DNA from: Candidatus Thermoflexus tengchongensis
Lineage (GTDB): Bacteria > Chloroflexota > Anaerolineae > Thermoflexales > Thermoflexaceae
Assembly: GCA_016842085.1 (NCBI GenBank)
Contig: JAEVEX010000061.1
Coordinates: 1 to 64,000, forward strand
Reading direction: 5' to 3'
DNA: 64,000 bases
Each line of letters begins with the position of its first letter. Position 1 is the first letter of the stretch. Shown here piece after piece: positions 31,963 to 57,963 of the stretch. The position numbers and the translations under genes are program-made. The notes below the pieces were generated by a model, which was given only the letters and a program-made list of their open reading frames with translations, ran no database searches and was not told where the DNA came from.

Positions 31963-32829
31963 ATGGGAAGGATGCGTGTCGGAGATGTCTTCACATTGCT
32001 CATGCTGGGGGCGATCTGGGGTGCCTCCTATCTGTTTTTCGCCCTGGGGGTGCGGACGATCCCGCCCCTGACGTTCGTGACGGGGCGGCTGCTGATCGCC
32101 GCCGCTCTCCTCGGGTTGTTCCGGCGGATCCGTCCCGGTGCCCGAGTGGATCCACCGTGGGGCGCTTACCTGGCGATGGGGCTGTTCAACGCTGCGCTGC
32201 CCCATACGCTGATCGCCTGGAGCGAGCAGACCATCCCCAGCGGGCTGGCAGGGGTGCTGGTGGCCACGATGCCGCTCTGGGCAGCAGGATTCACAGCCAT
32301 CGGGATTCGAGAGGAACGACCATCCCGACGGCAGCTGGCCGGGCTGCTCCTCGGCTTTCTGGGGATCCTGATCCTGCTGTTCCCGGATCTCCGGCGGGCG
32401 GCCCATGGACATCTGATCGGCGAAGGGGCTGTGGTAGTGGCCGCCCTCTCTTACGCTGCGGCCACGGTCTATGCCCGACGGGCCCTGCGAGGGGTTCCCC
32501 CGGTGGACGCGGCGATCGGTCAGCTCGGGTGGGGCGGGATGCTGCTGCTGCCTTTCAGCCTGTTCCTCGATCGGCCGTGGACGCTCTCCCCGGCACCGGA
32601 GTCCCTCGCCGCCCTGATCCTCCTAACGGTCCTGGGCACCGCGATCGCCTATGTGATGTATTACGGGCTGCTCCAGCGGGTGGGAGTGGTGGGGGTCTCC
32701 CTGGTGGTGTATCTCAACCCGATCTTCGCGGTGCTCTGGGGGGCGGTCTGGCTCGGGGAACCCCTTTCCGGATGGCTTCTCGGGGGCATGGCGCTCATCC
32801 TGGCCGGGGTGTTTTTAGCCGGGCGGTGA
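31963..32829 (+). CDS. EamA/DMT-family transporter
   Basis: 288-residue integral membrane protein with ten predicted helices arranged as two EamA repeats. LMLGAIWGASYLFFALGVRTIPPLTFVTGRLL opens the first repeat and AALSYAAATVYARRALRGVPP the second; YLNPIFAVLWGAVWLGEPLSGWLLGGMALILAGV is the typical C-terminal helix pair. Likely exports small metabolites (amino acids or similar); substrate unknown. GAGGG precedes ATG 31963; ATG 31972 is an alternative. Converges on the repeat array at 32843. Confidence 0.85.
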   Translation: MGRMRVGDVFTLLMLGAIWGASYLFFALGVRTIPPLTFVTGRLLIAAALLGLFRRIRPGARVDPPWGAYLAMGLFNAALPHTLIAWSEQTIPSGLAGVLVATMPLWAAGFTAIGIREERPSRRQLAGLLLGFLGILILLFPDLRRAAHGHLIGEGAVVVAALSYAAATVYARRALRGVPPVDAAIGQLGWGGMLLLPFSLFLDRPWTLSPAPESLAALILLTVLGTAIAYVMYYGLLQRVGVVGVSLVVYLNPIFAVLWGAVWLGEPLSGWLLGGMALILAGVFLAGR

Positions 32830-32842
32830 GGGATTGGGGGGT

Positions 32843-33394
32843 GTCGAATGAATTCGACCTTATCGGCCTGCGGCCGGTGGCCGGCCTTAGGGCGTCGAAT
32901 GAATTCGACCTCAAAAGGCCTTCGGCCATCGGCCGGCCTCCGCCGGCCGAAAAGCATCTTCGCGTCAGCGAAGGCCGACGCCCGGCGCAAAGCGCCTCAC
33001 CAGGCCGATTTCAATCGGCGTGGGGGTCATCGGCCGGCCTTAGGACGTCGAATGAATTCGACCTCGAGAGGCCTCCGGCCGATCGGCCGGCCTTCGCCGG
33101 CCGGAAGGTTTTTCGCGTCGGCGGAGGCCGACGCTTGGCGCGTAGCGCCTCGGGAGGCCGATTTCAATCGGCGCAAAAGGCCTCCGGCCAGCGGCCGGCC
33201 TCCGCCGGCCGAAAAGCATCTTCGCGTCGGCGAAGGCCGACGTTCGGCGCGAAGCGCCTCACCAGGCCGATTTCAATCGGCGCAAAAGGCCTCCGGCCAG
33301 CGGCCGGCCTCCGCCGGCCGAAAAGCATCTTCGCGTCGGCGAAGGCCGACGTTCGGCGCGAAGCGCCTCACCAGGCCGATTTCAATCGGCGCAA
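32843..33394. repeat. Multi-hairpin repeat array with a 109-bp exact tandem duplication
   Basis: About 550 bases built from short palindromes. GTCGAATGAATTCGAC occurs three times (32843, 32894, 33047). Four copies of a larger unit follow, each with GGCC-TCC-GGCC, CGGCCGGC-CTCC-GCCGGCCG, CTTCGC-GTCG-GCGAAG, GGCGC-GAA-GCGCC and GCCGATTTCAATCGGC. Units at 33171-33279 and 33280-33388 are identical over 109 bases. The last palindrome supplies the stop codon of the convergent glycosyltransferase. No transposase or cas gene is nearby. Confidence 0.9.
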
Positions 33395-34593
33395 TGCGCC
33401 CACCCCATCAACCAGACTGCTGCTTCCTCCACGCCGCCGGCGGCCTCCATGCGTTGCGCCCAGTCCTGCGCTCGCTCTCGAAAGACAGGTTCCTGGAGCA
33501 GGGCGGCAATGTGTTCCCGCCATCGACGGGGCGTGGCCTCAGAAGGCCACAGCGTCATGCCCACCCCCGCCGCCACCACCCGACGGGCCTGCAGGTGCTG
33601 TTCCCCCGCATGCGGAACCACCAGCTGAGGGACACCATAGACCAGCGCGGTATGGGTAGTTCCCATCCCCCCGTGATGGATCACCAGATCCAGTTGCGGG
33701 AACAGGGTTGGGTAATCCACCCAATCCCGAACCGGGAGATCTGGAAGCGCCCGCGCCACAGCCTCCCGGAGCCCGGGGGCGAAGGGGCTCCTCCCCAGGA
33801 CCAGGAGGGGCTCGCCGCCCAGGCTCTGCACAGCGCGAGCCGCTCCGATGAAGAAGGCGGGATCCCCGGTGAAGGTGCTTCCCAGAGTGATCAGGACGCG
33901 AGGACGCGAGCGCGGCGGGGGTGGAACAATCGATGCCTTCCGACGTCCCCCGAAGAACCGGTTCTGGGGATCCAGACGCTCCAGATCGATGAACCAGCCG
34001 GCGGGAAAGAAGACGATGTGCGCGTATGGAGAGGTGATCTGAGGGAAAGGATCCACCCGCCAGAAGCGTCCGGTCAGCCTGAGGCGTGCGGCGATCTCCA
34101 TCAGCCGGGCCCGGGCAGCTTCCACCTCGGCCTGGGCCTCCAGAGTGGAGGGGGCAGGCCAGCGCCCGGCGGGAAATCCCACCACGATCAGGGGAAGGTC
34201 ATACCGCTCCGCCGCCCAGGCCGCGACGCCGGCGAAAGGCTCCGCCACGATCCAGTCCGGGCGCCAGACTTCGATCAGGGAGCCCAGGGCGCGCAGCGCC
34301 CGGGCATGCTCCTCCGGATGGAGCCAGGCTTCCAGGGCCCGCTCCCGCCGCCATCGCGCCCGCTCCGCGGGGGGAACATCCGGTGGGAGCGGAGGCAGCC
34401 ATCGCCAGCCCACCGAGGGCAGCGGGGTAAAGGGAAGGCCCCGGCGGACCACTGCCTCCTGCACCAGGGATCCGCTGGCCCAGAGCACCTGATGGCCCCG
34501 CCGAGCCAGCGCGACCGCCAGATCCATGTAGCCCCCATAGTCCAGGTGGCCCCATAAAGGAACCGAGAGGAAGAGCCAGCGTCGTGGCTTCAT
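33382..34593 (-). CDS. UDP-glycosyltransferase-like (MGT/UGT type) protein
   Basis: 403-residue GT-B fold glycosyltransferase of family GT1 type, as in macrolide and glycolipid glucosyltransferases. N-terminal LFLSVPLWGHLDYGGYMDLAVALARRGHQVLWASG. The C-terminal donor-binding signature is LVIHHGGMGTTHTALVYGVPQLVVPHAGEQHLQARRV with the PSPG-like HHGGxGT. Acceptor unknown; a lipid or carotenoid are options. Its ATG overlaps the stop of the pentaheme cytochrome gene (ATGA, 34593-34590), indicating coupled translation. Its stop codon lies inside the repeat array. Confidence 0.87.
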   Translation of the reverse strand: MKPRRWLFLSVPLWGHLDYGGYMDLAVALARRGHQVLWASGSLVQEAVVRRGLPFTPLPSVGWRWLPPLPPDVPPAERARWRRERALEAWLHPEEHARALRALGSLIEVWRPDWIVAEPFAGVAAWAAERYDLPLIVVGFPAGRWPAPSTLEAQAEVEAARARLMEIAARLRLTGRFWRVDPFPQITSPYAHIVFFPAGWFIDLERLDPQNRFFGGRRKASIVPPPPRSRPRVLITLGSTFTGDPAFFIGAARAVQSLGGEPLLVLGRSPFAPGLREAVARALPDLPVRDWVDYPTLFPQLDLVIHHGGMGTTHTALVYGVPQLVVPHAGEQHLQARRVVAAGVGMTLWPSEATPRRWREHIAALLQEPVFRERAQDWAQRMEAAGGVEEAAVWLMGWAHCAD

Positions 34594-35213
34594 GGCCCCA
34601 TTCGAACGGGCCCCCGGCCGACCTCCCGATGGCAGCGCTCGCAGGCCGGGATCACCACTTCCCGGATCGTGAAGAAGGGCTCCAGGCTCTCCATATGGGA
34701 AGGATGGCAATCCACACAGCCCACCGACGTCCGAAGGTCCGGCCGGAGCAGGTCCGTGTGGAAGTGATTCTCGAAGATCGGAACAGTCACCGGGTTCGGT
34801 TCTCCCCGGGGCACGCCCCCGCGTTCCGGCTCGCGGATGTGGCAGAGCCGGCATCCGGCCTCTGGAAGGGAAACTAGGCGGACCGGATGGCGAGGCGTAT
34901 CCGGGGAAATGAACGGCGTGCGGGCGGTGTTCCATGCGCCCAGGGCGAGGGCAACGGCGCGGTGGGGCAGGGATTGATCGCCCCGATGGCATCCCACACA
35001 TGAGATCCCGGCGGCCGCATGGGCGGCGGCGAGATCCACAGGCTGCCCCTCCTGGGCCGCCATCGCCCGCCCGACGTAGGTGGTCTCCGGGCGCAGATGG
35101 CAGCTTGCGCAGAAAGGATCGCGCTCCTCCGCCCGCGAAACCCAGAGCGCCGCACCGAGAACGGCGACCAGGGCGCCGCTCAGGACCAGCCCCACCTCTT
35201 TCCAGGAGATCAT
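34590..35213 (-). CDS. Membrane-anchored pentaheme cytochrome c (NapC/NrfH-like)
   Basis: 207 residues. One N-terminal membrane helix (VGLVLSGALVAVLGAALWV) followed by five haem-binding motifs: CASCH, CVGCH, CRLCH, CVDCH and CERCH, with extra His residues for distal ligation. The layout resembles quinol-oxidising NapC/NrfH proteins that pass electrons across the membrane, although the usual count there is four. Start ATG at 35213 follows AGAGGATCT. Co-translated with the downstream glycosyltransferase through an ATGA overlap, an unusual pairing. Confidence 0.88.
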   Translation of the reverse strand: MISWKEVGLVLSGALVAVLGAALWVSRAEERDPFCASCHLRPETTYVGRAMAAQEGQPVDLAAAHAAAGISCVGCHRGDQSLPHRAVALALGAWNTARTPFISPDTPRHPVRLVSLPEAGCRLCHIREPERGGVPRGEPNPVTVPIFENHFHTDLLRPDLRTSVGCVDCHPSHMESLEPFFTIREVVIPACERCHREVGRGPVRMGP

Positions 35214-56763: not shown

Positions 56764-57963
56764 ATGGCGTTCACGGTTCGGGATCTGGATGATCTGATCC
56801 GCCTGCTGGACAGGCATCCCCAGTGGCTGGAAGCGTTGCGCCAGCGGCTGCTGACGAAGGAGCTCATGCAGTCGCCGAAGACCCTGCGGCGTGTGTCCAC
56901 CCGGTTGGGGAAGGTGGAAAAGGCCCTGAACAGCCTGACGGAGACCGTGAAGACCCTTACGGAATCGGTCACCGCTCTCACGGAGGCCCAGCGGCGAACC
57001 GAGGAGTCCCTGACCACCCTCCGCCGGGAGTTCCTGGAACAGCGCGCGGAAACCGAGCGCCGCTTCGCCGAACTGGCCGAAGCCCAGCGGCGAACGGACG
57101 AACGCATGGGACGCCTGGAGGAATCCCTGGCCGCCCTCGCCGAGGCCCAGCGCCGCACCGAGGAGAACCTGGGGCGCCTCAGCGAAGCCTTCGCCGCCCA
57201 CCGCCAGGAGTTCCTGGAATACCGCGCGGAAACCGAGCGCCGCTTTGCCGAACTCGCCGAAGCCCAGCGGCGAACCGACGAACGCGTGGGACGCCTGGAG
57301 GAATCCCTGGCCGCCCTCCGCCAGGAGTTCCTGGAGCACCGCGCGGAAACCGAACGCCGCTTCGCCGAACTGGCCGAAGCCCAGCGGCGAACCGACGAAC
57401 GCGTGGGACGCCTGGAGGAGGCCGTCGCTGCCCTCGCCGAAGCCCAGCGCCGCACGGAGGAGGCCGTCGCTGCCCTCGCCGAAGCCCAGCGCCGCACAGA
57501 ACAGCGCCTGGATCGCCTTGAGGCCGTGGTCCAGGGGCTGGCCGCCCAGGTTGGCCGCCTTACGGAGACAATGGGCGCTACCGCCGAGGAAGAAGCCCAC
57601 GATGTCCTCCTGACGGTCCTTCGGGAGCGGGGCATGAAAGCCCTGGCCCGCCCTGCTCCCCTGATCGTGGATGGCTGGGAGATCGATCTGGCAGCTCCGG
57701 TGGAGGATCGGGAGGGCCAGCGGGGATGGGTGCTGGTGGAGGTGAAACTCCGGCTGTCTGCGGATCACGTGTGGGCATGGGCCAGCCGGGTGGGCTCCGA
57801 GGGATTCCGGGAGGCGCTGCGGCGGGCCGGAGTGGAGGGGCCGGTGTGGGTGTATATCTACGGGCTACGGGTGACGCGGGAGGCCGAGGAGGCCGCCGAG
57901 CAGGCTGCAATGGGGCTCCTGTGGCCCCGTGGAGAGCTCCGGGAGCCAGTGAAGATTCTTTGA
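56764..57963 (+). CDS. Coiled-coil protein with C-terminal PD-(D/E)XK-like domain
   Basis: 399 residues. An N-terminal helical segment is followed by long Ala/Glu/Arg repeats (variants of LAEAQRRTDERVGRLEE, residues about 70-265) forming a parallel coiled coil. The C-terminal 130 residues contain GWEIDLAAPV and WVLVEVKLRL, fitting the D and ExK of the PD-(D/E)XK nuclease fold, as in DUF3782-like proteins. The repeats are encoded by near-identical DNA blocks of about 80 bases. RBS GAGGAGAGAGAT precedes ATG. Function unknown; such proteins are frequent in thermophilic Chloroflexota and cyanobacteria. Confidence 0.7.
   Translation: MAFTVRDLDDLIRLLDRHPQWLEALRQRLLTKELMQSPKTLRRVSTRLGKVEKALNSLTETVKTLTESVTALTEAQRRTEESLTTLRREFLEQRAETERRFAELAEAQRRTDERMGRLEESLAALAEAQRRTEENLGRLSEAFAAHRQEFLEYRAETERRFAELAEAQRRTDERVGRLEESLAALRQEFLEHRAETERRFAELAEAQRRTDERVGRLEEAVAALAEAQRRTEEAVAALAEAQRRTEQRLDRLEAVVQGLAAQVGRLTETMGATAEEEAHDVLLTVLRERGMKALARPAPLIVDGWEIDLAAPVEDREGQRGWVLVEVKLRLSADHVWAWASRVGSEGFREALRRAGVEGPVWVYIYGLRVTREAEEAAEQAAMGLLWPRGELREPVKIL

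Follow-up and report, generated by a model that had tools for sequence, protein, structure and literature searches.

Head-to-tail arrays of a six-hairpin repeat in Thermoflexus and their probable partner, a low-copy Y1 transposase

Architecture of the Array and Its Unit

The window, i.e., the whole stretch of 64,000 nucleotides analyzed here, lies on contig C73 of the Candidatus Thermoflexus tengchongensis genome (G000; 3.89 Mb, 100 contigs). Between the genes for an EamA transporter and a glycosyltransferase, positions 32843–33391 are occupied by a head-to-tail array of a unit with six small hairpins, H1 to H6, comprising one partial, two full, and two short units (Table 1). Full units have a period of 153 bp, and the short unit of 109 bp is a unit without H1. 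A preliminary description of this region had claimed exact 109-bp tandem units between convergent genes, one of which receives its stop codon from the array. All of this was confirmed: the two short units are identical over all 109 bp, EamA transporter (+) and glycosyltransferase (−) genes flank the array, and the TGA of the latter (TCA on the forward strand) is situated inside the last H6. The five hairpins counted in that description apply to the short form (H2–H6), whereas the full form has six, as H1 is added. Allowing up to three mismatches, module H6 was found eight times in the window (0.45 expected) and module H1 seven times (0.36 expected). Elsewhere in the window, tandem repeats of 117 bp and 42 bp were noticed at 57136–57497, inside the predicted coding gene 56764–57963.

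Table 1. Features of the array and its flanks (positions within the window).
Feature	Position	Strand	Remark
Whole array	32843..33391	+	all units co-oriented
Partial unit: H1 hairpin and H2/H3-like fragment	32843..32893	+	
Full unit 1 (H1–H6)	32894..33021	+	covariance model match, E 6.5e-34; followed by linker to 33046
H1 hairpin, full unit 1, left end	32894..32909	+	
H2 hairpin, full unit 1	32917..32927	+	
H3 hairpin, full unit 1	32929..32950	+	
H4 hairpin, full unit 1	32962..32981	+	
H5 hairpin, full unit 1	32984..32996	+	
H6 hairpin, full unit 1, right end	33004..33019	+	
Full unit 2 (H1–H6)	33047..33173	+	covariance model match 33047–33174, E 3.1e-34
Short 109-bp unit (H2–H6, without H1)	33174..33282	+	
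Second short 109-bp unit	33283..33391	+	identical to the preceding unit
Flanking EamA transporter gene	31963..32829	+	context, outside the element
Flanking glycosyltransferase gene	33382..35001	-	context, outside the element
Glycosyltransferase stop codon	33382..33384	-	within H6 hairpin of the last unit

The outer hairpins are H1 (GTCGAATGAATTCGAC) at the left and H6 (GCCGATTTCAATCGGC) at the right; H2 (GGCCTTCGGCC) and H5 (GGCGCAAAGCGCC) lie further inward, and H3 and H4 are approximately reverse complements of one another. Because nearly all of the unit matches its own reverse complement, it can be described as a quasi-palindrome of small palindromes. Folding energies of a single unit were 6.7 SD (DNA) and 6.5 SD (RNA) below those of shuffled sequences. 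The edges are sharp: on the left, conservation is at background level beyond H1, and on the right, it reaches this level a few bases past H6. Across Thermoflexus arrays, units measure 110–160 bp and contain up to six small hairpins. GAATTC, the recognition sequence of EcoRI, occurs in H1 of nearly every Thermoflexus unit; the H1 copies of the window array are located at 32843–32858, 32894–32909, and 33047–33062.

The stems of the hairpins are preserved through compensatory changes. Among 199 Thermoflexus units, pair 2 of H1 occurs as T-A (111 units) or C-G (78), and pair 3 of H3 as T-A (107) or C-G (89), which corresponds to 95% and 99% Watson–Crick pairs, compared to 51% and 50% expected for independent columns. 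In an alignment that also covered further families of the class, 88 double-changed cells were counted in the stems, compared to 19.1 in shuffles, and the stem covariation score was 0.220 compared to 0.079; relatedness among the units inflates both counts, and sliding the partner columns destroyed the signal. Selection and template-switch repair could each maintain the pairing, and the data fit both.

Known hairpin labels were searched for as well. The motif GT[AG]G was present at only 3 of the 912 feet of H2–H6 in the 199 units, and the CGTC tag did not occur regularly at the hairpins. At the foot of H1, G-Y precedes the stem in most arrays. Comparison with Rfam yielded no match above the gathering score. 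The best one in the window array was Chloroflexi-1 RNA (23 bits, cut-off 80), an identity that we dropped and took as chance, as it did not recur in other arrays.

A Genome-Wide Repeat Family in Thermoflexus

A DNA search returned at least 129 unit matches in G000 and at least 230 in G004, the complete one-contig genome of a congener. As the latter number stems from a single contig, the repeat family is no assembly artefact. In G000, 37 clusters were read, of which three are weak, and in G004 the number was 36; about 34 clear arrays are present in G000, and equally many in G004. The modular palindromes thus form a genome-wide family, as had been proposed, with many arrays in both genomes rather than at this locus only. 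A pattern scan of named genomes based on H1 gave additional matches in Candidatus Thermoflexus japonica and Thermoflexus sp. 629H.11. Within arrays, modules are almost uniformly oriented (171 versus 0 in G000, 263 versus 2 in G004). Units of the same array share 91% identity and units of different arrays in one genome 84.5%, which, together with the differing lengths of orthologous arrays, bears out the idea that the family grows in place.

The plasmid and phage collections contained no unit match, and these Thermoflexus repeats are not described in the part of the literature covered. The 19-mer GTCGAATGAATTCGACCTC matched exactly twice in one bin named Gammaproteobacteria, which could be chance.

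Gene Context of the Arrays

Gene calls around the arrays came from a simple model for which long ORFs served as the training set. By these calls, the arrays of G000 lie in 14 co-directional, 6 divergent, and 14 convergent gaps, and those of G004 in 22, 7, and 7, respectively. Array-free gaps of at least 50 bp served as control. Convergent gaps were in excess when both genomes were pooled (21 of 70 arrays versus 27 of 192 array-free gaps; odds ratio 2.6, p 0.006), with odds ratios of 3.6 (p 0.004) in G000 and 1.8 (p 0.27) in G004. Divergent gaps showed no deficit (13 of 70 versus 36 of 192; odds ratio 0.99). Of the previously suggested bias towards convergent intergenic regions, a weak pooled excess remains, but it is not significant in G004 alone, and most arrays are located in co-directional or divergent gaps. 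Relative to co-directional genes, 31 arrays have the same and 14 the opposite orientation (p 0.016). In G004, neither GC skew nor the strand of local genes was linked to array orientation.

A Y1 Transposase Gene between Two Arrays

Searching nine Thermoflexus genomes with the Pfam model Y1_Tnp revealed nine matches. The three strongest, in G008, G002, and G004, represent one protein type of 142–157 aa. In each of these congeners, the gene for this HUH/Y1 transposase lies between two co-oriented arrays. There is one gene of the partner type per genome, and the one to four Y1 matches found per genome in all are not near-identical. The partner protein passes the NCBIfam IS200 model NF033573 (58–67 bits, cut-off 55); against the REP transposase model NF047646, it reaches no more than 25–26 bits (cut-off 80). 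Its relatives of solved structure are IS200/IS605-type transposases, and its motifs are DHLH, WQ, and YI(R/Q)RQKEHH. A first impression from the DNA search, that G002 has units nowhere except around the transposase gene, was dropped, as the covariance model finds 42 units in this genome.

A transposase of the partner type was not found in G000, G003, and G006, all three of which are rich in units; most genomes are metagenome bins, and gene absence is therefore uncertain. In G000, the enzyme may sit in an assembly gap or be lost, or the array may now change through recombination alone. Regarding array length, we observed long arrays in G004 and G008, where the transposase was detected, and sites with mostly just one or two units in G003 and G006, where it was not. 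G000 breaks this pattern with long arrays and no detected partner gene.

At the site of the transposase gene in G004, no array is present in G008, G000, G002, G001, G005, and G007, while G003 and G006 carry a single unit without the gene. In the gene tree, genes of two other families fall among those of Thermoflexus. The array-free site and the tree together suggest movement of the partner gene and its transfer between lineages, with contamination of metagenome bins as a caveat.

Transposase and Unit across the Class

A class-wide search identified relatives of the partner gene in 126 of 298 genomes. At 24 of the 30 relatives' loci that were read, direct repeats were present in both 450-bp flanks, compared to 1 of 118 control genes; the remaining six had no direct flanking repeats. 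In G084, a member of another family, the repeat beside the transposase gene has 44 matches over the genome. Using the covariance model, we found the unit outside the genus in 19 of 19 gene-positive and 4 of 14 gene-negative genomes. After removal of the training genomes, the numbers were 13 of 13 and 4 of 14 (p 1.5e-4). In many genomes, unit counts from this model are lower bounds (at least about 83). Unit matches with no detected transposase of the partner type were seen in G014, G023, G024, and G028.

Turnover of Units and History of Sites

Array flanks in G003 and G004 are mostly 94–98% identical, and every site that could be compared on both flanks is filled in both genomes. This also applies to all six G003 stretches that were chosen by synteny and had no known G003 match. 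Three apparently empty sites turned out to be misplaced flank alignments beside an array. The two genomes share the sites and differ in unit sequences and numbers. Across 26 locus pairs, the arrays total 20.7 kb in G004 and 6.4 kb in G003, a multi-contig assembly in which array collapse is possible and bears on the latter figure. Identity at variable positions was 0.541 between orthologous sites of G003 and G004, compared to 0.485 after permutation (0 of 500 as high), and 0.745 within one array. Units at corresponding sites thus resemble each other little more than units at different sites do, and their contents are exchanged almost completely. The state of the covarying H1 pair was uncorrelated between orthologous sites (r 0.005). 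As a change of this pair needs two substitutions, it is more likely that units were replaced by other units than that they mutated. The arrays might accordingly be regarded as fixed docking sites between which a single-strand transposase would swap units in a manner resembling homing or conversion, instead of units jumping anew; we put this forward as a tentative idea that is rather less likely than likely to apply.

Regarding the locus in the window, the EamA and glycosyltransferase genes are adjacent with no array between them in G001, G002, and G005. In G008, each of the two genes has an array and each is found at a contig end, as if once joined. G003, G004, and G006 have the glycosyltransferase gene with an array and the EamA gene elsewhere without one. 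The simplest reading of this distribution is that the gene pair is older than the array and that a rearrangement with a breakpoint close to the array followed later. A second case is the transposase gene of G008, where the outer flanks of its two arrays correspond to two separate contigs of G000. As judged from these two cases, too few for statistics, arrays may act as recombination points. No exact empty site of high identity was found that would fix the cleavage positions or a target duplication; the empty sites between the EamA and glycosyltransferase genes in G001, G002, and G005 are too diverged for this.

Comparison with Known Systems

By its motifs, the partner protein is a candidate member of subclass 1.2 of the TnpA-Y1 transposases (Quentin et al., 2018). 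Members of this subclass are reported to be low in copy number, generally lack IS200 ends, have no REP association, carry the motifs Y---Q--HH, WQ, and DH[IV]H, and are mostly found in Cyanobacteria and Bacteroidetes (PMC6006769). The Thermoflexus protein shares Y---Q--HH and WQ, a length of 142–157 aa, and the low copy number. It differs in its HUH motif DHLH, with L instead of I/V, in its occurrence in Chloroflexota, and in being flanked by dispersed palindromic units. In the part of the literature covered, no repeats are described together with subclass 1.2. So far, REP-type repeats, mostly with GTAG at the foot of the hairpins, were known in connection with other Y1 transposase subclasses; should the link proposed below be true, a subclass reported as repeat-free has multi-hairpin repeats of its own across a class of Chloroflexota.

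A low-copy Y1 gene flanked by dispersed intergenic palindromes resembles the REPtron, i.e., REP/BIME sequences with their TnpA-REP (RAYT) (PMC2817692, PMC6006769, PMC8266576), and by analogy the arrangement of arrays and transposase appears to work like one. However, it is not a canonical REPtron: the hairpins lack the GT[AG]G foot, the enzyme is outside the REP transposase family and has Y---Q--HH in place of the Y---NP of class 2, and units of about 130 bp with six hairpins are strictly head-to-tail, in contrast to the alternating pairs of BIMEs. With IS200/IS605 elements, the system shares a transposase that matches Pfam Y1_Tnp and the IS200 model, and hairpins at element ends. In contrast to these elements, there is one gene copy per genome and no discrete insertion sequence of fixed length in near-identical copies, and the flanks are arrays of a unit that is also found alone in dozens of places. 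Like REPINs, the units are non-autonomous, nearly self-reverse-complementary, and form a sequence population within one genome (PMC3116915, PMC8049555), but they are longer, have six hairpins and tandem arrays, and lack a canonical RAYT; moreover, the enzyme occurs patchily and seems to have been exchanged between families. CGTC-tagged palindromes and the neisserial dRS3/NIME arrays are also clustered intergenic palindromes, but small single ones reported without a dedicated transposase (PMC3733652).

A Probable Single-Strand DNA Element and Alternative Explanations

We consider it probable that the array is a REP/BIME-like, non-autonomous single-strand DNA element whose cognate enzyme is the low-copy HUH/Y1 transposase with the subclass 1.2 signature. 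Among the three roles considered in the preliminary description, namely transcript ends, DNA supercoiling sites, and single-strand recombination, the last one fits the partner Y1 gene best. Enzymes of the Y1 superfamily catalyze single-strand cleavage and strand transfer (PMC8266576); from this chemistry and the association of gene and unit, we infer that the enzyme moves the units. It would recognize the unit hairpins in single-stranded DNA, cut and join near the unit ends, and copy or swap units between sites, and tandem growth would proceed via unequal exchange or slippage between direct copies. The main weak point of this explanation is the missing partner enzyme in G000, G003, and G006; the four gene-negative genomes with units outside the genus and the six relatives without direct repeats on their flanks also speak against it. 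The genus offers a natural comparison between species with and without a detected enzyme, by which it is directly testable whether the transposase moves the repeats, and it represents a case of inherited repeat sites with exchanged contents.

The unit-rich genomes without the gene would also be expected if the repeat family were independent and the transposase gene merely had a tendency to enter or persist in it, similar to certain insertion sequences that are known to target REP sequences (PMC1525189, PMC8450116). The single unit at the G004 gene site in G003 and G006 would fit an insertion of the gene into a unit, although gene loss by recombination leaves the same trace. We regard such independence as unlikely, since a plain target preference predicts neither the direct repeats flanking 24 of 30 relatives in many families nor a unit presence that tracks gene presence. 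A function of the arrays mainly as bidirectional transcription terminators or stabilizers of mRNA 3′ ends would agree with the strong RNA folding, the mild excess in convergent gaps, and the terminator-like sites of the region, of which five were counted (0.8 expected) and four lie inside the array. Yet divergent gaps are not avoided, and such a role requires neither arrays of up to 1.5 kb nor a link to a transposase, which makes it quite improbable.

Chromosome-structure roles are known for E. coli BIMEs. Binding sites for gyrase or nucleoid proteins, multiplied by homologous recombination and slippage alone, would be in line with the intergenic position of the arrays and with sites that are all filled in both G003 and G004. 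This reading appears very improbable to us, as array orientation in G004 follows neither GC skew nor gene strand, and recombination alone leaves the transposase linkage and the patchy spread over the class unexplained. Tandem copies created by misassembly might be suspected from the two exactly identical units and from several arrays at contig ends of draft genomes. However, the same arrays are present in one-contig G004, and the sequences of almost all units are distinct, so that we give this explanation hardly any credence; for the identical 109-bp pair itself, an assembly error is possible.

Other Y1_Tnp Genes in the Genus

The other six Y1_Tnp matches in the genus, outside the partner type, have no units of this repeat family nearby. 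Near position 304772 of contig C1 in G004, a different Y1_Tnp gene is accompanied on both sides by unrelated repeats of about 120–140 bp, several of them in tandem, and perhaps represents a second transposase–repeat system in the genus. Another Y1_Tnp gene, near position 14797 of contig C97 in G000, has palindromic repeats of 59–75 bp in both flanks, which are unrelated to the array unit.
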